Source: a virus. Taken from it: a DNA stretch of 64,000 nucleotides. The notes under the pieces are model-generated. The model ran no database searches and was not told the origin of the DNA. It saw only the letters and a program-made list of their open reading frames with translations. The position numbers and the translations under genes are program-made. The stretch is taken from the IMG/VR virus record IMGVR_UViG_3300022903_000002, positions 41,083 to 105,082 of that record; one strand, given 5' to 3'. Shown piece after piece: positions 7,392 through 51,538 of this stretch. Positions within the stretch are counted from its first letter, which is position 1. The number at the start of each line of letters is the position of its first letter.

Positions 7392-10300
7392 GTGGCCGCT
7401 CAAGTCGGTGCTGCTTACATCAAGGTCGCTCCGAACCTCGCCGGTTTCCACCGCACGATCACCAAAGAGCTAAAAAGCCTCAGCCCGCAGGTCAAGAAGA
7501 TCGGGTTGGGGCTCGGCCGGAACCTTGGCGACGGCATCAAGGTCGGCCTCGGCGACCCGCTTTCCGGACCGCTGGATGAGTCCACCAAGAAGCAACGGCA
7601 GAAAGGCCCCAAGCAGGGCGAAGAGGTCGCTGGGGCGTTCGCGAAGGGTTTCGAGAAGCGCCTGAAGGCAGCGTTTCAGGCCCTGCCGAAAGCCGAAATC
7701 GACGCTGATTCCTCACCCGCCGACAAGAAGATCGCGGAGCTTCGGCGACAGCTTGAGGCACTCTCCGGCAAGACCGTCGGTGTCGACATTGACGCGGGTG
7801 CGGCTCTCTCAGAGGTCGCCGCGATCCGGTCCGAGTTGGAGGCACTGGACGGCCACGAGTCGATCCAGGTCGATGTCGACGCCGCTGCGGCCCTGGCGGA
7901 GCTCACCGCGGTACAGGTCGAGGTCGATCGGGTAGATGGGCGCACAGCCCGTGTGAACGTCAACGCGGACGTGTTGCCGGCGTTGGCTGGTATCGGGCTT
8001 GTCAGCACGGCGTTGCTTGGTCTGACGGCGATTCCGATTGCGGCGACGGTCGGTGTGGGGATCCTGTCGCTGGTCGGTCCGCTTGGTGCGGCGGGAGCTG
8101 GGTTCGCTGGTCTTGCTGCGGTCGCGACTCCGTCGATCAACCGTATCGGCGAGGCGCTGAAGGTCCAGAAGCAGGCGCAGGACGCGTCGACGGGTAGTGC
8201 CGCGCAGGCCGCGGCGGCGAACAAGAAGCTCGCCGCGACGATGGCGGCTCTGTCGCCTGCTGAGCGCGACGTGCTCAAGTCGTGGAACGGGCTGCGGACG
8301 GCGTTCACGGGCTGGGCGAAGGAACTGCAGCCTGCCGTGCTCCCGCTGTTCACGCGCGGCATCAACCTGGTGAAGCAGGCTCTGCCCGGGTTGACGCCGA
8401 TCGTGAAAGGCGCGGCCGGCGCGGTCAACGGTCTCCTCGGGGACGTTACCCGCGCGGCTCAGTCGCCGTTCTGGCGGCAACTACGGACGAATATCACAGG
8501 TCTGGTGCCGACGTCGATCACGGGTTTCGGGAAGATCGCCGGGAACATCGCGACGGGTCTGGCTGGGATCGTGTCCGCGTTCTTGCCGTATGCGCCCACG
8601 ATCTTGTCGTTCATCACCCGGATCACCGCGGGTTTCGCCCGTTGGGGCCAGGGGCTGGGGACCTCGAACGGCTTCGCGAAGTTTATGGCCTACGTCAAGC
8701 AGAACGCGCCGCTGATCCTCGAGACGGTCAAGCAGCTCGGCTTGTCGATCGCGCACATTGTGTCGTCGCTGGCACCACTCGGCCCGGCCGTCCTCGGCGG
8801 CTTCGGGCTGCTGCTGCGGTTTATCGGCATGCTGACGCCCGGCGAGATCCAGGCCATCGCGATCGCGTTCACGCTCCTGTCGGTGTCGATCTGGGCCGTG
8901 AATTTCGCGCTTGAAGCCAATCCGGTGGTGCTTGTCATAACGCTGATCGTCGCTCTTGTGGCGGCGGTCGTCTTGGCGTTCAACCACGTGACGTGGTTCC
9001 ACAATGCGGTGGTCGCGGCGTTCAACGGCATCAAGGCCGCGGTCCTGTTCGTCTGGAATTCGGTCTTGAAGCCGACGTTCTCGGCTCTCGTGGTCGCTTT
9101 CCAAGCGATCAGCACGGTCGTGATGTGGCTGTGGCGGAACGTGATCTCCCCGGCATTCAGCGCCATCTCGCTGGCCGCACGGATCCTGTTCGCGATCGTC
9201 GCCGTTGCCGTCCTGGCGCCGCTGGTCATCGCGTTCAACATCCTCAAGGCCGTGATTCTGGCTTGGTGGCACATCGTTGTGGTGCCAGCGTTCGCGGCGG
9301 TGCAGGCGGTCATCGCGGCAGCATGGGTGGTGATCCACCCGATCCTGGCCGCGCTCGGCGTCGCGGTCCGCGCTGTTGGCGCTGCGGCGATGTGGCTGTG
9401 GCACAACGCGATCGTGCCGGCCTGGAACGGCATCAGCCTTGCAATTGCCACCGTGTACAACACGGTGATTCACCCGATCTTGAACGCGCTGAACGCGGTG
9501 CTACGGAACGTGATCGCCCCGGTTTTCCGGTGGATCTACACATCGGTGATCAAGCCGATGTTCCAGGCGGCGGGCGCTGTGATCCGTAACGTCTGGAACA
9601 CCGCTATAAGTCCGGCGTTCAACGCTCTTAAGTCGGGTGTGAACGCGGTCAAGAACGCGTTCTCCACCGCTGTCTCGGCAATCGGGCGAATCTGGAAGGG
9701 CCTGGAGTCCGCCACCAAGAAACCCGTCCAATTTGTTGTCAACACGGTCTACAACAACGGCATCCGTTCCGTGTGGAACAAGGTCGCCGGCCTAGTTCAC
9801 CTGCCTCAGCTGCCTGCGGCGAAGTTCGCTCAGGGCGGTATCTTCCCGGGCTACACGCCCGGCAAGGACCCGTACTCCATGCCGATGGCCGCCTTCTCTG
9901 GCGGCGAGGCCGTCATGCGGCCCGAGTTCACCCGAGCGGTCGGCCCCGGGTTCGTGTACGCGGCGAACAAGGTAGCTCGCAAGCGTGGGCCTGGCGGTGT
10001 CCGGGATTTCCTCGCGAACGGTGAGATGAAGTTCGCGACGGGCGGGATCCTGCCCGGACGGCATGTGGCGGCATTCGCGAATGGCGGCATCATCGGAGGG
10101 ATCCTCGGGGCCGTCAAGCGTGCCAGCAGTCTCGTGGTTCGCGGCGCGTCATCGGTCCTCGGCGGGGGTGCGAGCGCGTTCGCGAAGACCGTCCTCAACC
10201 CGATCCTGTCTCGGATCCCGGGGGCGGATTCGCCGTGGGCGCAGGGCATCCTGTCCCTGCCGAAACGGATGATCGATGGGTTCATCTCCTGGCTGCACAC

Positions 10301-12134
10301 AGCCATCGATCCGAAGCTCGGCGGTGACGCGCATGGTGTTGTCGCCGCAGCGAAGAAATACATCGGTATCGGCGACGATAGAGGACCTAACAACAACATC
10401 TTCAGCCGCTGGTGGGGAATGCCGGGCGGGCCTTGGTGCTTCGCGGCCGGAACACTTGTGGACACCCCACAAGGCTTGGTCCCGATCGAGAACCTCAAGG
10501 TCGGCGACCCGGTCTACACCGGAACCGGCAATGTCCAGCGGGTGTCGTGTCTGTACAGGAGGCAGAAAGAGCTGTGGCGCGTCGTCGCCATGGGAATGCC
10601 CGAGACCTTCACGACCGAAGACCATCCGTATCTTGTGCGTAAGCGCCTCGCTGGGCGGAAGCGGGCGTTTGCGGAGCCGCAGCGCACATCGGTCAAGGAC
10701 CTCCGGAAGGGGGACCTGATCGGCCTTCCGCTCGGGCCGGAAGGAACGACGAAGTACGACCCGGACCTGAGTTACGTCCTCGGCATGTATGTCGCCGACG
10801 GATGCCGGAGCAAGGGCACCGTGATCTTCTCGGATGCCCCTGGTGAGACCGAACGGATCCTAACCGCCCTCAAGCGCGCCGGCTTCGATCGAGCATGGAC
10901 CACACGTAACGGCGGTGGGACGAACACGGGCATCACCGACAGCGGCCTCTACGAACTGTGCGGGAAGTTCGGGGACCTGGCACACAACAAGGAGATCCCC
11001 GATGAAGTCCACGCTTGGGATGCCGCCGCCAGGACCGCTTTCGTAGAGGGGTTCCTCGCCGGGGACGGGCACCTGAACGATGCGATCTCGTGCGGTGGTT
11101 CGCCGCGCTGGGAGGTCACGACCGTTTCACCGAAGTTGGCCGTCGGGCTGGCCAAACTACTGCGGTCCCTGGGGTTCCTCCCGTCGGTGAATGACGGTCG
11201 CCCTGAACAATCGCTGACGATCTGCGGACGGGATACACACTGCCGGAAGCAGTTCAAGCTGAGCTGGCGGAACGCCCATCGCGATGAACTTACCTATCAC
11301 CATTACGTCGAAGAGGACGGTGTCATCTGGGTTCCGGTTCGTGAGGCGGAGCCGACGGGGCGAGTCGAGTGCGTGTATGACATCACCGTTCCTGGCGAGC
11401 ACACATTCATCGCTAACGGAGCGTATTCGTTCAACTGCGCCATGTTCGTTTCTCGTGTCATCAAGGACGCCCACGCCGAGAAGTACTACTCCGGATATCC
11501 GACGGCGCTGGCCGCCGGGTACAACTCGATGCGGCATGTCAGTAGCGGGCAAGCTGGTGACCTCGCCACATACAACGGCGGCGGTCACATCAACATCATC
11601 GAGAAACCCGCTGGCGGGGCGTACATGACGATCGGCGGGAACCAGAACGCGCTCGTACAGCGCGGTATCCGGTCTCCCGGCCTGATTTTGCGCCCGGCGT
11701 TCGCGAACGGCGGGATCATCGGCCGAGAAGCGCAGCGCCTGTTCAAGCACGACGCACCGCGGCAGATCGACAAGCACGAACTGCAGACGCCGATGGTGCA
11801 ACTCATGCGTTCGCTGCCGTCCGGGCAGATGAGCAACGTTGTCCGCGCGATCACGAAGAAGCACCTCACCGTCGCGAACGCCGGCGTCTACGACGACGGA
11901 GGTGTTATTGCCCCTGGGTTGAACCTTGTCGCGAACGCGTCACGAAAACCGGAAGCGCTGCTGAGCAACGCGCAGTGGCGTGGCATCACCGAGGCCGCCG
12001 CTGGTGGCGACACGCACTATCACGCGCACCTGGACGAGATGACGCAGGCGGCCTACGGCACGCAGATCCGCTCGACATTCCACGCGATGGAAACCCAGCG
12101 GGCCATGAAAGAGCGCATCGGACGGAGGCGCTGA
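7392..12134 (+). CDS. Tape measure protein with C-terminal CHAP peptidase domain, interrupted by an intein
   Basis: 1580 residues (about 1247 after splicing). N-terminal helical/basic region, several hydrophobic segments around residues 200-260 and 470-680, and repeated Trp motifs (MWLWRN, MWLWHN, VWNxxxxPxFxA) typical of siphophage tape measures that set tail length and enter the cell membrane. Near the C-terminus a CHAP-type amidase/peptidase domain is split: GGPW at 1012-1015 and CAMFVSRV from 1349, then GGGHINIIEKP supplying the His. The intein occupies 1016-1348. The CHAP domain probably helps cell-wall penetration on DNA entry. Start GTG 7392 follows GGGGGTGG. Confidence 0.85.
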   Translation: MAAQVGAAYIKVAPNLAGFHRTITKELKSLSPQVKKIGLGLGRNLGDGIKVGLGDPLSGPLDESTKKQRQKGPKQGEEVAGAFAKGFEKRLKAAFQALPKAEIDADSSPADKKIAELRRQLEALSGKTVGVDIDAGAALSEVAAIRSELEALDGHESIQVDVDAAAALAELTAVQVEVDRVDGRTARVNVNADVLPALAGIGLVSTALLGLTAIPIAATVGVGILSLVGPLGAAGAGFAGLAAVATPSINRIGEALKVQKQAQDASTGSAAQAAAANKKLAATMAALSPAERDVLKSWNGLRTAFTGWAKELQPAVLPLFTRGINLVKQALPGLTPIVKGAAGAVNGLLGDVTRAAQSPFWRQLRTNITGLVPTSITGFGKIAGNIATGLAGIVSAFLPYAPTILSFITRITAGFARWGQGLGTSNGFAKFMAYVKQNAPLILETVKQLGLSIAHIVSSLAPLGPAVLGGFGLLLRFIGMLTPGEIQAIAIAFTLLSVSIWAVNFALEANPVVLVITLIVALVAAVVLAFNHVTWFHNAVVAAFNGIKAAVLFVWNSVLKPTFSALVVAFQAISTVVMWLWRNVISPAFSAISLAARILFAIVAVAVLAPLVIAFNILKAVILAWWHIVVVPAFAAVQAVIAAAWVVIHPILAALGVAVRAVGAAAMWLWHNAIVPAWNGISLAIATVYNTVIHPILNALNAVLRNVIAPVFRWIYTSVIKPMFQAAGAVIRNVWNTAISPAFNALKSGVNAVKNAFSTAVSAIGRIWKGLESATKKPVQFVVNTVYNNGIRSVWNKVAGLVHLPQLPAAKFAQGGIFPGYTPGKDPYSMPMAAFSGGEAVMRPEFTRAVGPGFVYAANKVARKRGPGGVRDFLANGEMKFATGGILPGRHVAAFANGGIIGGILGAVKRASSLVVRGASSVLGGGASAFAKTVLNPILSRIPGADSPWAQGILSLPKRMIDGFISWLHTAIDPKLGGDAHGVVAAAKKYIGIGDDRGPNNNIFSRWWGMPGGPWCFAAGTLVDTPQGLVPIENLKVGDPVYTGTGNVQRVSCLYRRQKELWRVVAMGMPETFTTEDHPYLVRKRLAGRKRAFAEPQRTSVKDLRKGDLIGLPLGPEGTTKYDPDLSYVLGMYVADGCRSKGTVIFSDAPGETERILTALKRAGFDRAWTTRNGGGTNTGITDSGLYELCGKFGDLAHNKEIPDEVHAWDAAARTAFVEGFLAGDGHLNDAISCGGSPRWEVTTVSPKLAVGLAKLLRSLGFLPSVNDGRPEQSLTICGRDTHCRKQFKLSWRNAHRDELTYHHYVEEDGVIWVPVREAEPTGRVECVYDITVPGEHTFIANGAYSFNCAMFVSRVIKDAHAEKYYSGYPTALAAGYNSMRHVSSGQAGDLATYNGGGHINIIEKPAGGAYMTIGGNQNALVQRGIRSPGLILRPAFANGGIIGREAQRLFKHDAPRQIDKHELQTPMVQLMRSLPSGQMSNVVRAITKKHLTVANAGVYDDGGVIAPGLNLVANASRKPEALLSNAQWRGITEAAAGGDTHYHAHLDEMTQAAYGTQIRSTFHAMETQRAMKERIGRRR
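10437..11435 (+). mobile_element. Intein with LAGLIDADG homing endonuclease inside the tape measure gene
   Basis: 333 residues. It starts at C1016 (block A: CFAAGTLVDTPQGLVPIENL), has block B (TTEDHPYLV, with the T-x-x-H pattern), two LAGLIDADG motifs (LSYVLGMYVADG at intein 111-122; FVEGFLAGDGHL at 202-213), block F (VYDITVPGEHTFIANG) and ends SFN before extein Cys1349. The penultimate intein residue is Phe, not the usual His, while block F keeps its His. Splicing restores PW-CAMF, so the +1 nucleophile is also the predicted catalytic cysteine of the CHAP domain. The bounds are set by these motifs. Confidence 0.9.
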
Positions 12135-35338: not shown

Positions 35339-37282
35339 TTAGGCGGCGACTGACGCCAGCCGCTGTTTGCCCCGTTCGGTGATGCGATACAGTCCGCGAC
35401 CGGTCTTCTCGATCTCGCCCGAGGCGACCAGGTCGGTGAGAGCCTTGGTGATAGTGCGGAGCGCCGGCGGCGGGGACATGTGGGTCTGGATGAACCCGAC
35501 CATCTCCCCTCGGTTCACTTCCTGGCCGTCCCGCTCCGCCAGATAACTCAAGACGGCGTCTTCGCCGATGCGGGACTGGTCGGAGTCGTCCTGTGTGTCC
35601 GCCTTCGATGACTGGCTTTGTGGGGTGTGGGCGCTGGCTCCGTCGCCGCCGGCGACAGGACCGACGAACGGCTCGAGTTGCGCCGGCTCCCCGCTCGTTG
35701 CCCAACGTCGCGGCTTGATGATCAGGAACGTTCGCATCGTCGCGGGACGGTCAGCGCCGGGCCCGAACACGTAACCGAGACCTGAAGTCGTGTCTCCGTT
35801 CGGCCATTCCTTGGGCAGCGTGCACGGGTCGACGGGCATCGACCCGTTGAACGCGACCTGGCCCGAGAGGCGGTTCGCGGTGCGGAACACGATGACGTTC
35901 CCGGCGGCGACTGCGTCACGGATCGCCATGGAGTTGCCCAGGCTGTTCAACAGCGGCACTTGGGTGATTAGCCGGAATTTGATCCCGCACTTGCGGGACA
36001 TCGCGATCATTTCCTCAACGAGCGCACAGCAGACAGGGTCACCGAGGACGGTCTGCGCCTCGTCGACTGTGACGCTGATCATTGGCAGGCCGTGACGCGG
36101 GTCGCCGGGGGTGAACTCCTCGATGCCCTCGATCTCTTCGCCGTCCTCATCGACCCACCGGATCGTGGACATGAGTTCGTTGCGGGCGTACATACGGTCG
36201 CGGAGTTCACGGAGCCGGCCGCGGATCGCGTCGAGGCCACCAGCGAACTGAGCGACAGCGTTCTTCCACCCAGACTCGGAGTAGGACTGCCCGCGTTGCG
36301 GGTCCAGAAGGATCGAAGCGATCACACCAGAGTGGCGTTCCTCGGCGAGGAGGAGTTTGACGAGGACAGACTTCCCGGCGTCGGTGGATCCGGCGATGAG
36401 GTCGTGGACCGGCCCGGACCGTGGCCGGTAGTGCCGGTACGAGACAGGATTCCCGTCGGTGTACACGCCGATACGGGAGACACCAGTGGCGGTTTTGAGA
36501 GTCGGCCCAGGCCAGTGGTGAACCTCCTGGAGCGGGTTCTCGGCCTGCACGAGCACCCGGAAGTGCCGAAGGGACCCGTCGGGGGCCGGTTCGATACTGA
36601 TCGAGCCGGTCTTCAGGTGGAGTGCGCCACCGATGTCCTCGGTCGCCATAATCGCGCGCTTGTAGGTGCCTTTGGTGACTTCGCCCAGTCCGGCCCAGCC
36701 GCCGCGGATCTTCTCTACTTCGAGGATCCGCGAGTGCTCGAGCGGGCCGCCTGAGCAGGAGACATGGAGGCGCCACGACTCGACCAGCTCCGGGTCCTCC
36801 GCGACGGGCGCGACCTCGGGCGCCTGGTGGTTGCGGATGCGGTAGCGCCACCACCACGGCAACGCGAACGCCCCACCGACGATCGCGAGCCACGCGGGCA
36901 TCGGCTTGCCGACACCGTGCGCTGCGGCTTCCATGAGCCACAGCGTCGCCGCGATGATTGAGGTGACCGCGTGCAACTGCCGCCAGATATTCACGGCCTT
37001 GGCGTAGAGGGCCCACCATGTGCCGCCGGCGGTTACCGCGCCGGTTGCGAGGACCGCCCACCACGGGGCACTGAACACCTCCAAGGCGAACCCAGTGACG
37101 TAGGCGCCGCCCATGACCTCGACGGGGATGAGTTGGCGGCGGAACCGTCTCCCGACCTTGAACGTCCCGGCGAGGGCCCGGTGCTCCTTCTTCGGAGCGG
37201 ACGCCGCAGCGGCAACCGCTGGCTGGGACACGTCAACGCGAACCGTCTGCGGGTCCCGCTGCTCAACTGCTACGGCGTCCAT
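35339..37282 (-). CDS. FtsK/SpoIIIE-type DNA translocase (TraB-like conjugation protein)
   Basis: 647 residues. N-terminal hydrophobic segments (about 52-70, 73-93, 105-120, 128-145) anchor it in the membrane. Central motor domain has Walker A at 297-305 (AGSTDAGKS), Walker B at 401-408 (MISVTVDE) and the LITQVPLLNSLG sensor region. The C-terminal 75 residues form a winged helix, as in TraB proteins that bind short repeats (clt) and move double-stranded DNA between hyphae. Length and domain order fit AICE/plasmid TraB rather than a phage packaging ATPase or the longer cell-division FtsK. Confidence 0.85.
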   Translation of the reverse strand: MDAVAVEQRDPQTVRVDVSQPAVAAAASAPKKEHRALAGTFKVGRRFRRQLIPVEVMGGAYVTGFALEVFSAPWWAVLATGAVTAGGTWWALYAKAVNIWRQLHAVTSIIAATLWLMEAAAHGVGKPMPAWLAIVGGAFALPWWWRYRIRNHQAPEVAPVAEDPELVESWRLHVSCSGGPLEHSRILEVEKIRGGWAGLGEVTKGTYKRAIMATEDIGGALHLKTGSISIEPAPDGSLRHFRVLVQAENPLQEVHHWPGPTLKTATGVSRIGVYTDGNPVSYRHYRPRSGPVHDLIAGSTDAGKSVLVKLLLAEERHSGVIASILLDPQRGQSYSESGWKNAVAQFAGGLDAIRGRLRELRDRMYARNELMSTIRWVDEDGEEIEGIEEFTPGDPRHGLPMISVTVDEAQTVLGDPVCCALVEEMIAMSRKCGIKFRLITQVPLLNSLGNSMAIRDAVAAGNVIVFRTANRLSGQVAFNGSMPVDPCTLPKEWPNGDTTSGLGYVFGPGADRPATMRTFLIIKPRRWATSGEPAQLEPFVGPVAGGDGASAHTPQSQSSKADTQDDSDQSRIGEDAVLSYLAERDGQEVNRGEMVGFIQTHMSPPPALRTITKALTDLVASGEIEKTGRGLYRITERGKQRLASVAA

Positions 37283-44297: not shown

Positions 44298-44390
44298 GTA
44301 GCAGTACGCTACAAGATGCACCAAGATGCTGCAAGGGGGTCTGGCCAAGAGGTTGTTCCAACTTGTTGCAAGGCGCTACAACAGACCTAT
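44297..44390. promoter_or_regulatory. Divergent control region between the Xis-like and XRE genes
   Basis: TGTAGC-AGTAC-GCTACA (44297-44313) is a perfect 6-bp inverted repeat at the leftward start codon. Related half sites follow on the + strand: GATGCACCAAG, GCTGCAAGG, GTTGCAAGG, GCGCTACAAC (44371-44382). The shared element is roughly yTTGyAGC. Both promoters must lie here. Confidence 0.55.
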
Positions 44391-44742
44391 GAGCGCAGAT
44401 GAACCGGGCGCCCGTTTCGCAGCCGAGGTCGACGCCAGACGGAAAGCGATGGGTCGCGCGGTCGGGTGGCTGGAGGATCGATCGGGTATCGCTCGCAGCA
44501 CGGTTGGCCGCTGGCGAAGAGGCCTTGCTGCGCCAACACCAGAGCCGGTGATCGCGATTGCCGATGCCCTCGGCATGGACCGGACGACAGCGCTGCAACT
44601 CGCTGGGCTCTCTCCGGCGATCGCGGTGGGTGAGGCGGGCGAGCCGATGGCGTTGACCAGGATTCACATTGATGTCCTGCTGGCCGAAATACGTAGGCGA
44701 ATCCCCAATGCTGACGACACTGCGTCTGAAGGCTCGGACTAG
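44389..44742 (+). CDS. XRE-family regulator
   Basis: 117 residues from ATG 44389. Helix-turn-helix RRKAMGRAVGWLEDRSGIARSTVGRWRRGLAAPTPEPVIAIADALGMDRTTALQLAGLSP fits the Cro/CI type. No ribosome site precedes it, consistent with leaderless translation. It is divergent from the leftward operon and flanked by repeat sites, so it probably controls both. Confidence 0.75.
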   Translation: MSADEPGARFAAEVDARRKAMGRAVGWLEDRSGIARSTVGRWRRGLAAPTPEPVIAIADALGMDRTTALQLAGLSPAIAVGEAGEPMALTRIHIDVLLAEIRRRIPNADDTASEGSD

Positions 44743-44920: not shown

Positions 44921-45583
44921 ATGGACCCGGCTCAGGAGTGGACGGGGCGCACAGCCACCGCGCTCCGCAAAGCCCTACGATTGACCGTCGACCGGTTCGC
45001 CAGCCGACTCGGAGTAGCACCGCGGACTGTCGCGAATTGGTCAGCGCAGCCCGATATGGTCCCGCGCGTAAGCGTGCAGGACGCACTCGACGACCTGCTC
45101 GGCCAGGCGACTCCCGCCGTCCGAGAGCGCTTCACGGAACTTGCTGATGGCAATGAGGGTGCGTCGGTAGGCCATGCTCAATCGCTCCGTGTCGCGATCT
45201 CGGTGGTAACCCGGAATCGAGACGTGCTGCTCGTGAAGCGCCGTGATGACGGGGCAGGGATCTCTTGGCAGTTCCCGGCCGGCGTCATCAAACCGGGCGA
45301 ACGCGGCGAAGACGTAGCCGTGCGGGAGACCCTTGGGGAGACCGGCGTTCACTGCATCGTGCAACAGCCGATCGGCTCCCGGCTCCACCCCGTGACGGGT
45401 GTGTACTGCGACTACTACGCCTGCGACTTCCTCACGGGAGAAGCAGTGAACCGGGATACCGTGGAAAATGCCGGTGTCGCATGGGTGTCGCGCCAGGATC
45501 TGACCCGGTTCGTCGCCCGTGACAAGGTGTACCCGCCGATCTTGCGCTTCCTGGAGGAACAGCGTGACGCAGCCCACCGATAG
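44921..45583 (+). CDS. HTH-Nudix fusion protein with degenerate Nudix box (Pif-like)
   Basis: 220 residues, ATG after GGGAGGCGGG. Residues 10-70 form a helix-turn-helix (RLTVDRFASRLGVAPRTVANW). Residues 88-215 are a Nudix fold, with the box G121x5E127x7R135E136xxG139E140xG142: the first Glu of the metal-binding EE pair is Gly139. In the AICE pSAM2 the Nudix protein Pif blocks transfer into cells already carrying the element; a similar regulatory or sensor role is plausible. Coupled to the next gene by overlap. Confidence 0.7.
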   Translation: MDPAQEWTGRTATALRKALRLTVDRFASRLGVAPRTVANWSAQPDMVPRVSVQDALDDLLGQATPAVRERFTELADGNEGASVGHAQSLRVAISVVTRNRDVLLVKRRDDGAGISWQFPAGVIKPGERGEDVAVRETLGETGVHCIVQQPIGSRLHPVTGVYCDYYACDFLTGEAVNRDTVENAGVAWVSRQDLTRFVARDKVYPPILRFLEEQRDAAHR

Positions 45584-46001
45584 CCGCCCCGTCATCGCAG
45601 CGGCCGTGATCGTCAAAGACGGTCGCTTCCTGCTCGTGCAGCGGGCCGTCTCGGAGGGCAGCCTGTCGTGGCAGTTCCCGGCCGGCGAAGTCGAGCAGGG
45701 CGAATTGGTAGAGGACGCGGCTGTTCGGGAGACCGCCGAGGAGGCCGGGCTCGTCGTTGTCGCTAAGAGCAGGCTGGGGGAACGGATCCATCCCGCCACG
45801 GGCCGCGAGATGGTCTACGTCGAGTGCGAAGTCATCGACGGAGAAGCGCACGCCGCGGACGATGAGGAGATCGCTGCAGTCTCCTGGATCCGTCTCGACG
45901 AGATCCCCGAGTACGTCCCCTACGGCTTCTACAGGCCGGTGCACGAACACCTTGCCGAGAGGCTGGGAGGCGGACCGCGCGAGCGCACCACCGGCGAGTG
46001 A
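45564..46001 (+). CDS. Nudix hydrolase
   Basis: 145 residues from GTG 45564 (GGAGG seven bases upstream, inside the previous gene). Complete Nudix box G41x5E47x7R55E56xxE59E60xG62. It is clearly paralogous to the Nudix half of the preceding protein (both contain SWQFPAG at the same place), so the pair arose by duplication, one copy keeping the active site. Would hydrolyse a nucleoside diphosphate derivative. Ends at a terminator. Confidence 0.8.
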   Translation: MTQPTDSRPVIAAAVIVKDGRFLLVQRAVSEGSLSWQFPAGEVEQGELVEDAAVRETAEEAGLVVVAKSRLGERIHPATGREMVYVECEVIDGEAHAADDEEIAAVSWIRLDEIPEYVPYGFYRPVHEHLAERLGGGPRERTTGE

Positions 46002-46046: not shown

Positions 46047-46358
46047 CATCTCTGGGGTCGATGTAGCAGCGGGGCGCTGAGAGCCACCAGGAACTCCCAT
46101 ATGGCTCGGACCTATAGTCGCCCATGAGCAAGGGGCTTTGCGGCCCGCACGTTCCTCCTGGGTGTCGTTTTTGAGGGCATGGCGAAACATGCGCCTCGCT
46201 GTCGAAGGCATAGCAATGGACTCCGTCCTCTCGGAGCGCCGTTCTCGCGTGCGCACGCGCGAGGGGCTCCTGGAAGGGGAAGGGGATAGGGGAAGGGGAA
46301 ACCAATACTTCCCACCGTTACTACTCCCCTTCCCCTGTGCCCGACGGGTATCCCTCGC
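46047..46358 (+). other. 312-bp gene-free stretch with purine-rich run
   Basis: No gene recognised on either strand. It contains a G/A-rich run near 46270-46303 (GGAAGGGGAAGGGG units) and a matching C/T run near 46323-46335, which could fold back or form a triplex. It leads into the AAGGGTT repeat clusters. Confidence 0.4.
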
Positions 46359-46415
46359 TTAGGGTTCCCGGAAGGGTTCGCTAAGGGTTCTTGGAACCCT
46401 TAGCGAAGGGTTGTG
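46359..46415. repeat. AAGGGTT repeat cluster 1
   Basis: Five copies of the AGGGTT core: TTAGGGTTC at 46359, AAGGGTTCG at 46372, TAAGGGTTC at 46382, inverted GAACCCTTA at 46394, and AAGGGTTGTG at 46406. The middle two form a perfect 13-bp-arm palindrome (46378-46406, TTG loop). The cluster ends GAAGGGTTGTGACCTGC, the same as cluster 2. Confidence 0.8.
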
Positions 46416-46612
46416 ACCTGCAAGGACGCTGGTTCACGGGCTTGCGGCGAACCATGACCTCCCGCCCTCGAAACGGTTGGCCGAAATAGGGGTAGGAAAG
46501 CTGCAAAAACAGGGCCGGTGGCCGCAGTCAGCACGTCCGGTTGTGAGCCTCGTGAACTGCGAGCAGGAAAAATGCGGCAGGGCTTATGTTTCCCCAGGTA
46601 GAAACCCCCGGC
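46416..46612 (+). other. Spacer between the two repeat clusters
   Basis: 197 bp with no credible ORF. It opens with a decayed copy of the small ORF at 46668 (GTGACCTGC followed directly by AAGGACGCTG) that stops after 14 codons. AT content rises around 46500-46590. Confidence 0.4.
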
Positions 46613-46670
46613 GAAGGGTTCCCGTAACCCTTTATAGAACCCTTGGGGGAACCCTTAGAGAAGGGTTGTG
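46613..46670. repeat. AAGGGTT repeat cluster 2
   Basis: Five copies: GAAGGGTT at 46613, inverted TAACCCTTT at 46625, inverted GAACCCTTG at 46637, inverted GAACCCTTA at 46649, direct AAGGGTTGTG at 46661. Spacing of 12 bases between consecutive sites is regular. The last copy overlaps the ribosome site of the small ORF at 46668. Confidence 0.8.
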
Positions 46671-46790
46671 ACCTGCGCTTTCGCGTATCTCGCGCACAAC
46701 ACTGAGAAGGACGCTGATCGGCGCGTGGTGGACTACCTGATCGAGCATGACCGGCGGGATCTGCTCGCGCCAGCCGTGTCCCGCGGCTAG
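46668..46790 (+). CDS. 40-residue protein after the repeat cluster
   Basis: GTG start with GAAGGG before it. MTCAFAYLAHNTEKDADRRVVDYLIEHDRRDLLAPAVSRG, charged and helical with normal high-GC codon use. Its 3' end overlaps the stop of the leftward gene by four bases. It may be a truncated relic, since a shorter copy of its start exists after cluster 1. Confidence 0.45.
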   Translation: MTCAFAYLAHNTEKDADRRVVDYLIEHDRRDLLAPAVSRG

Positions 46791-48758: not shown

Positions 48759-48890
48759 ATGGGCGCACACGGCGGCGGTGGCAACTCGGACGGCAAAGGC
48801 GGGGACGGGAACAACCCGCGAGGTGGCTCCCACAGCGGCGGTTCCGGATCCGGCGGTAACGCCGGCGACGGCAACAAGCCCGGCAAGTGA
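48759..48890 (+). CDS. Gly-rich 43-residue peptide, candidate RiPP precursor
   Basis: ATG 48759 with GGGAGGG upstream. 19 of 43 residues are Gly, five are Asn; there is no Cys and hardly any hydrophobic residue. It holds three Asp-Gly pairs (SDGK, GDGN, GDGN), the dipeptide most prone to aspartimide formation. The stop overlaps the start of the PIMT-like methyltransferase (GTGA), so peptide and enzyme are made together. This is the layout of imiditide-type clusters, in which a PIMT homologue installs aspartimide in a short peptide. Lack of a clear leader/core split is a caution. Confidence 0.55.
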   Translation: MGAHGGGGNSDGKGGDGNNPRGGSHSGGSGSGGNAGDGNKPGK

Positions 48891-50059
48891 CACCTGGCGA
48901 CCTCGCCGCACGCATCGACCGCCTGTGCGACCAGCTCGTCTCCAGCGGGGATCTACGAAGCCCTGTCTGGCGGGCTGCATTCCACGCGGTCCCGCGGCAC
49001 CTGTTCGTCCCTGACAGGGCCTGGGCTTCCCCGAACGGCCCCGAAGCCGGCTACTCGATCGACCGTTCCTCCGACATGGACGGCTGGCTCGACGCCGTGT
49101 ACTCCGACGCCGCGATCATCACCCAACGCAACGACGGGCGAGCGGACGTCAACGGCGGTGGTGAACCGTCGAGTTCATGCTCCGCGCCGGCGACCGTCGC
49201 AGAGTTCCTCGAGTATCTGACCCCGGACGACTTCAACCGGGTCCTCGAGATCGGCACAGGAACCGGCTGGACTGCGGCGCTACTGTCGCACCGGGTCCGG
49301 GCCTGCAACGTCACATCCATCGATATCGATCCGGTCGTGTCCGAGACGGCAGCGAAGAACCTCGCGGAGACGGACTACCATCCGCGGCTGATCGTGGGCG
49401 ACGGGACGGCCGGCCACGGGTCCGGGGCGCCGTTCGACCGGGTTCATGTGGCGGTGGGCGTCGCGGACATCCCTCATGCGTGGGTCGACCAGACACGCCC
49501 GGGTGGGGTGATCGTGTTGCCGTTCATGCCCGGGTACGGCTTCGGGTGGCTCGCCCGCCTGCACGTCCTCGGTGACGGCACGGCGGTGGGCCGGTTCGTT
49601 GGGTCTGCCGGGTACATGATGCTCCGCGGGCAGCGTCCGGCATGCCGGGCGATCCCAGATCTGCCGAAGGCCGGGCTGGTCGAGTCGACTACGCGACTGG
49701 ATCCGCGGCGGGTCCACACGGACACGAACGTCGACCTGTTCATCGCTGCGTCGATGCCGGGCGTTCAGGAGCGCCTCTTCTACGGCGACGGTGATGCGGC
49801 GGACGAGTGCACGCTGTGGCTCATCGAGTCGGGTGACACGGGGTCGTGGGCGTCCGTGGACTACGTCCCGGGCCGGGCCGAGTTCGTCGTGGAGCAGTAC
49901 GGTGCGCGCCGTCTGTGGGACGAGGTTGAGGGGACGTACATGCGGTGGCTTGGCTGGGGGCGGCCGGGCATCGAACGGCTCGGGCTAACGGTCTCACCGG
50001 ACGGCCAGTACGTGTGGTTGGACTCCCCGGACCGCGTGTTGACGCCGGGTGGGGGATGA
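48887..50059 (+). CDS. PIMT-like O-methyltransferase (aspartyl)
   Basis: 390 residues, GTG start coupled to the peptide gene. Residues 1-200 match protein-L-isoaspartate methyltransferase: AVPRHLFVPDRAW, SAPATVAEFLEYL (substrate loop), and the SAM motif VLEIGTGTGWTAALL (119-133) followed by VTSIDIDP. The C-terminal 190 residues are an extra domain absent from housekeeping PIMT (about 210 residues) and present in the RiPP-associated homologues. Likely methylates Asp in the upstream peptide, leading to aspartimide/isoAsp. Confidence 0.75.
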   Translation: MTPGDLAARIDRLCDQLVSSGDLRSPVWRAAFHAVPRHLFVPDRAWASPNGPEAGYSIDRSSDMDGWLDAVYSDAAIITQRNDGRADVNGGGEPSSSCSAPATVAEFLEYLTPDDFNRVLEIGTGTGWTAALLSHRVRACNVTSIDIDPVVSETAAKNLAETDYHPRLIVGDGTAGHGSGAPFDRVHVAVGVADIPHAWVDQTRPGGVIVLPFMPGYGFGWLARLHVLGDGTAVGRFVGSAGYMMLRGQRPACRAIPDLPKAGLVESTTRLDPRRVHTDTNVDLFIAASMPGVQERLFYGDGDAADECTLWLIESGDTGSWASVDYVPGRAEFVVEQYGARRLWDEVEGTYMRWLGWGRPGIERLGLTVSPDGQYVWLDSPDRVLTPGGG

Positions 50060-51149: not shown

Positions 51150-51446
51150 TCAGAAGAACTCGTGCCGGACGAACAGGACGCCTTCTTCCATCCACTCACC
51201 CCTCTCGGCGCGCGGACGGCGGATGTTCCGGCGGCCCGGCTCCGTGGGAACTACCTCTGCGATCATCTCCTCCGGGCTGTACTCAACGCCGTGCTCGGCG
51301 AAGATCCGGTGACCAGCCAGCATCGCCTTCCAGTCGGCGAAACTGTCGACACCCTCGGGGGCCTTGGCCGTGAAGTGCCCGGCGGCCCACTTGCCGATGT
51401 GGTCTGCCTCGTTGTCGGGGCTGTCGAGGTAGTAGTTGGTGCTCAT
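51150..51446 (-). CDS. Conserved phage-type small protein
   Basis: 98 residues from ATG 51446 with GAGAAGGAG upstream. MSTNYYLDSPDNEADHIGKWAAGHFTAKAPEGVDSFADWKAMLAGHRIFAEHGVEYSPEEMIAEV is of a type frequent in actinophages. Unknown role. Confidence 0.6.
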   Translation of the reverse strand: MSTNYYLDSPDNEADHIGKWAAGHFTAKAPEGVDSFADWKAMLAGHRIFAEHGVEYSPEEMIAEVVPTEPGRRNIRRPRAERGEWMEEGVLFVRHEFF

Positions 51447-51538
51447 CCGGAACTCCTTCTCACTGGGGGTCGTATCTGGTGCCCCCCCGCGTCGTGAACG
51501 CGGAGCCGGTCTCACCGGAAAGGGCTAGGAATCAGGCT

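Follow-up and report, generated by a model that had tools for sequence, protein, structure and literature searches.

The repeat locus and its surroundings

The window that we analyzed is a stretch of 64,000 nucleotides, positions 41083-105082 of a 105,082-bp virus record that we call G000. Because G000 encodes terminase, portal, and tail genes together with DnaB and an integrase, we regard it as a temperate tailed phage. The record lacks a terminal repeat and is possibly a fragment. Coordinates below are those of the window unless the record or another sequence is named. We found no convincing gene between 46002 and 47090, in agreement with an earlier note on this DNA that had described the region as gene-poor. 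Rfam and tRNA searches of the locus gave no match, and we found no close DNA relatives of it in the plasmid and phage collections that we searched.

This region contains ten AGGGTT cores in mixed orientation, arranged as two clusters of five (Table 1), and their positions reproduced those in the earlier note. Nine of the ten sites are exact copies of AAGGGTT, and the first is TTAGGGTT, which reads TAGGGTT. Start to start, the clusters are separated by 254 bp, a correction to the previous figure of roughly 250 bp. Cluster 1 includes a palindrome (46377-46407) that is perfect, as had been claimed, with arms of 14 bp around a 3-bp spacer instead of the 13-bp arms given before. That both clusters end in a common sequence was also borne out: GAAGGGTTGTGACCTGC closes each of them and has no further copy in the 105-kb record, even when two mismatches are allowed. 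Two exact 17-mer matches in viral contigs were set aside as chance matches; both lack arrays. We counted 12 copies of AAGGGTT in the window as a whole, where 2.3 are expected. Nine exact copies fall within 296 bp, whereas in 60 Markov-simulated windows no 320-bp segment held more than two.

Table 1. Repeats at the locus and genes discussed in the text (window coordinates)
Feature	Position	Strand	Description
TraB/FtsK-like gene	35339-37282	-	NF041214, E 2.7e-16 (below curated cut-off)
XRE gene	44326-44742		HTH protein
HTH-Nudix gene	44921-45583	+	Adjoins the Nudix gene
Nudix gene	45519-46001	+	Adjoins the HTH-Nudix gene
GA-rich inverted repeat	46276-46335	-	GGGGAAGGGG at 46276-46285 and 46289-46298, CCCCTTCCCC at 46326-46335, around a low-G+C loop
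Iteron cluster 1	46361-46412	.	Five AGGGTT sites (46361+, 46373+, 46384+, 46395-, 46407+); steps of 12, 11, 11, and 12 bp; 14-bp-arm palindrome
GAAGGGTTGTGACCTGC, copy 1	46405-46421	+	Closes cluster 1
Iteron cluster 2	46613-46667	.	Five AAGGGTT sites (cores at 46615+, 46626-, 46638-, 46650-, 46662+); steps of 11, 12, 12, and 12 bp
GAAGGGTTGTGACCTGC, copy 2	46660-46676	+	Closes cluster 2
PCMT-like methyltransferase gene	48887-50059	+	TIGR04188, E 1e-86 (below cut-off); phrog_13505
Gene for 121-aa protein	51150-51515	-	76% identity to its G031 counterpart

The coordinates of the earlier note begin to the right of a GA-rich inverted repeat and so missed this third part of the locus. Its arms enclose a loop (46299-46325) with a G+C content of 41%, a value in the bottom 0.3% for the 27-mers of the record, and the loop carries CACCGTTACT, which is AGTAACGGTG on the minus strand. 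The inverted repeat and its low-G+C loop form a putative unwinding or loading region.

The HTH-Nudix and Nudix genes lie directly upstream of the array, and the HTH proteins are encoded within 2 kb of it. We found two weak relatives of the XRE gene and none of the TraB-like gene in viral contigs. The TraB/FtsK-like protein, here encoded in a tailed-phage record, has a homologue in G031 (described below), a match in Thermobifida phage P1312, and a strong match in G034 (E 5e-117); these would be phages that carry DNA-transfer ATPases of the Streptomyces type. The PCMT-like methyltransferase gene is also near the array, and TIGR04188 is the methyltransferase family of ATP-grasp peptide maturases. 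The identity of the 121-aa protein to its G031 counterpart is far above the genome average, and its sole other match is a weak one to phrog_12436 (function unknown). The best-conserved long proteins relative to G031 (59% identity) are encoded by two galactosyltransferase-like genes of the phage (record 32104-35171; 12104-12811 and 14368-15171 of the stretch L115).

The initiator gene of the same phage contains a degenerate copy

G000 encodes a replication initiator of the phrog_3171 family (record 10662-11609; E 1e-53), and a DnaB-like helicase gene comes after it. We found AAGGGTT sites within the initiator gene at record positions 11110, 11121, and 11143, together with degenerate ones in 11-bp phase. 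In the predicted structure of the protein, a winged-helix N domain modeled with confidence (residues 6-149) is joined by a disordered linker (157-200) to a helical domain at the C terminus. The in-gene iterons and purine tract begin at the end of the N-domain code and extend across the linker. A search of PDB folds with residues 6-95 of the N domain returned winged-helix chains as best matches; the plasmid Rep initiator chains 4pql, 4pt7, and 5kbj were among the top matches, tied with general winged-helix regulators (Z ~6.5).

The window site and the in-gene origin share more than the iteron word. Both carry GGGGAAGGGG, the low-G+C loop with AGTAACGGTG, and CCCCTTCCCC, and neither the order of these parts nor their orientation with respect to the iterons differs between the two. 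All five copies of GGGGAAGGGG in the 105 kb fall at one of these two places, and the record has exactly two copies of AGTAACGGTG, one at each. A Herbidospora phage gene (L077) has an in-gene origin with nearly the same layout. The earlier note had expected an origin or transfer locus to have a motif unique to this locus; this holds for the remainder of the record, and the exception, the initiator's own gene, is informative. The two places are 76 kb apart along the record, or ~29 kb if the record is circular. The cumulative GC skew of the record does not turn at either of them.

AAGGGTT arrays are widespread in phage initiator genes

We scanned viral and genome contigs for arrays of three sites in phase, allowing spacings of 9 to 14 bp and applying no protein criterion. 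The scan yielded 59 stretches from viral and 48 from genome contigs, more than 100 phage and bacterial loci, many of which have longer arrays with exact 11- or 12-bp spacing. When we clustered the open reading frames (ORFs) around the arrays, a single dominant family emerged, which was by far the largest (45 loci) and came from several phyla. Its ORF midpoint lies a median of 74 bp from the array centre, and at least two sites are inside the ORF in 42 of the 45 loci. Neighboring sites in these loci are spaced by 11 bp (50 cases) or 12 bp (132 cases) and never by 9, 10, 13, or 14 bp. All 10 members that we tested match PHROG families of replication initiators or helicase loaders (phrog_3171/8064/1701), and some members have DnaT or Phg_2220_C C-terminal domains. 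Among the hosts are Mycobacterium, Gordonia, Rhodococcus, Curtobacterium, Herbidospora, Pluralibacter, Salinisphaera, and Syntrophomonadaceae. We found no report of the AAGGGTT word as a phage-origin motif in the literature.

At 12-bp spacing the in-gene repeats translate as EPF/EGF tetrapeptides. The in-gene iterons are followed by a period-6 or purine-rich tract, and period-6 repetition was greater after than before the iterons in 29 of 29 nonredundant in-gene origins. Tandem 3- or 6-bp repeats (AGTAGC, GGAACA, CTCTAC, GTGTAG) directly follow the iterons in L012, L018, L027, L052, L081, and others; they may serve, like DnaA-trios, as a tract that the initiator binds in single-stranded form. 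Arrays of AAGGGTT in 11-12 bp phase also occur with no large ORF over them, as in L066, L105 (Staphylococcus), L110 (Halonatronum), L067/L088/L095 (Prevotellaceae MAG), and L068/L099 (Ruminococcus).

Among isolated phages, AAGGGTT sites lie in or just after the gene in 7 of 12 homologues of the N domain, compared with 0 of 6 proteins that share the C domain only; the array is absent in the other 5 N-domain homologues. In JonJames and prophiGD43A-5 this place is occupied by different repeats, after which comes a purine tract. Copies of the purine word fell at the in-gene origin in GAL1 (1/1), prophiGD43A-5 (3/3), and JonJames (2/3).

The window site has the AAGGGTT/AACCCTT word in 11-12 bp phase that characterizes the iteron origins of phrog_3171/8064/1701. 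It has the purine tract beside the iterons in a GA-rich form, and G000 supplies a cognate initiator with DnaB adjacent.

Two other records have a distal array

G031 (104,772 bp) is a distant relative of G000, collinear but inverted, with ~40 protein matches that are mostly 25-60% identical. Its initiator gene occupies 87754-88503, and the collinear place (10097-10400) holds a noncoding array of two clusters. Cluster 1 of the window aligns to G031 10072-10138 with 84% DNA identity. The G031 array is flanked by two copies of GCAGGTCA and by GGGGAAAGGGG/CCCCTTTCCCC. A search for further records that combine an array with TGACCTGC gave G031 only; TGACCTGC/GCAGGTCA flanks both G031 distal clusters and the distal site of G017. 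Pairwise comparison found no proteins common to G000 and G031 among the genes immediately beside the array.

G017 is a Nocardia flavorosea contig of 76,323 bp in which the initiator gene spans 9764-10495 and the distal array 72926-72976. Here the in-gene iterons are ATTGGYRAT in 12-bp phase instead of AAGGGTT. We found 10 copies of ATTGGYRAT in the 76 kb: six in the initiator gene, four at the distal noncoding site, and none elsewhere. The distal copies adjoin the AAGGGTT array and GACCTGC. At this locus (L133; G017 72926-73044) two iteron words stand side by side, five AAGGGTT in 11-bp phase followed by four ATTGGYRAT and then TTGACCTGC. The matching change of word is indirect support, and the strongest that the sequences offer, for recognition of the distal site by the initiator. 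The distal array is mainly AAGGGTT despite the different in-gene word, which could reflect two initiators or a remnant.

Discussion

We propose that 46276-46676 is a second, noncoding, origin-type site bound by the initiator of a ~105-kb temperate tailed phage, and we put the probability of this at about 0.8. Of the functions raised in the earlier note, an origin is the best supported, because the word, the phase, and the flanking parts are common to phage initiator genes, including that of G000 itself. According to this model, the first copy of the origin lies within the initiator gene, over the linker, and the second lies at the window site. The phrog_3171 initiator would attach to the AAGGGTT iterons, which recur at roughly one per helical turn, and would open the neighboring low-G+C loop that the GGGGAAGGGG/CCCCTTCCCC arms enclose. 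Opening would then allow loading of the DnaB-type helicase encoded beside the initiator. At the window site this could serve to fire an origin, to stall forks and thereby switch the replication mode, or to titrate the initiator. The sequence is compatible with each of these roles.

Because the in-gene copy is degenerate in both G000 and G031, it may be that only the window site works as an origin. Most array-bearing phages have the in-gene array alone; thus, a second site is no general requirement.

Extra iterons titrate the initiator or restrain over-replication in some plasmids. The same initiator may likewise bind the window site without starting replication there, titrating the protein or pairing with the in-gene origin to prevent over-replication. 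We regard this as possible but doubtful. The window has ten near-perfect sites compared with three in the gene, paired clusters suit looping, and the site is noncoding and distant from the gene. However, a site for titration only would have no need of the GGGGAAGGGG/AGTAACGGTG inverted repeat, which has the same orientation at both loci and recurs with GGGGAAAGGGG arms in G031; titration leaves unexplained why it is retained.

Other functions proposed for the locus fared far worse. A clt of the TraB/FtsK type, recognized by the TraB-like protein of G000, is very improbable. That protein is present and has a homologue in G031, but of the 16 array-bearing records tested, 12 gave no TraB match, among them G017, which has a distal array apart from its initiator gene, and arrays elsewhere track the initiator gene. 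Equally improbable is an operator array for the XRE or the HTH-Nudix regulator: these HTH genes are close by, but neither has a counterpart in G031 by pairwise protein comparison even though G031 keeps the array, and the word and its phase are common to unrelated phages across phyla. Least credible is a parS-like centromere; arrays of short repeats would suit one and prophages with parABS are known among phages (PMC7157519), but we found no ParB N-domain in G000 or G031, the repeats lie in initiator genes elsewhere, and an integrase is present.

An initiator-bound, origin-type site has parallels in known phages. In lambda, iterons and an unwinding tract (ori lambda) lie inside the gene for the initiator O, over the linker between its DNA-binding N domain and its C domain. 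The in-gene iterons and tract of G000 likewise lie over the linker between N and C domains. Unlike lambda, G000 has a shorter word (7 bp) in mixed orientation at 11-12 bp steps and a further copy outside the gene.

Bacillus phage SPP1 has two origins bound by G38P that are similarly organized, oriL inside gene 38 and oriR in noncoding DNA, and according to one proposal it is a fork halted by G38P at oriR that sets off concatemer synthesis (PMC6316719, PMC3485210). G000 resembles SPP1 in having two sites of similar build, repeats plus an AT-rich unwinding part, one in-gene and one noncoding elsewhere; like oriR, the window site is an additional noncoding site assembled from the parts of the in-gene origin. 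SPP1 is lytic and 44 kb long with origins ~13 kb apart, whereas G000 is 105 kb long and has an integrase and sites 76 kb apart, and its window site has two clusters plus a GA-rich inverted repeat. The resemblance of the window site to oriR is one of anatomy, with SPP1 taken from its published description.

For actinobacteriophages with RepA-like initiators, an origin has been suggested just upstream of or within repA; that study reported neither repeated motifs in the region that it searched nor a second origin (PMC7157519). Like actinophage RepA, the G000 initiator has an N-terminal HTH, and some of its homologues are annotated as RepA-like; the likeness to the RepA of that study (PMC7157519) is one of annotation and N-terminal HTH.

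Most phages have a strong in-gene copy, whereas that of G000 and G031 is degenerate and that of G017 is built from another word; all three records have a strong distal site. We tentatively suggest that large actinophages may have moved, or be moving, their working origin stepwise from the initiator gene to a noncoding site, with the binding word and both sites changing together; we consider this less likely than not.

These findings tie a very common family of phage initiators to a specific word, AAGGGTT repeated at 11-12 bp, which we saw in phages and prophages of Actinomycetota, Pseudomonadota, and Firmicutes hosts. Origins should therefore be locatable by sequence in hundreds of phages. They also suggest that the two-origin layout of SPP1 is no curiosity and that large actinophages retain an additional origin in noncoding DNA; the theta-to-sigma switch would thereby become testable in another lineage.
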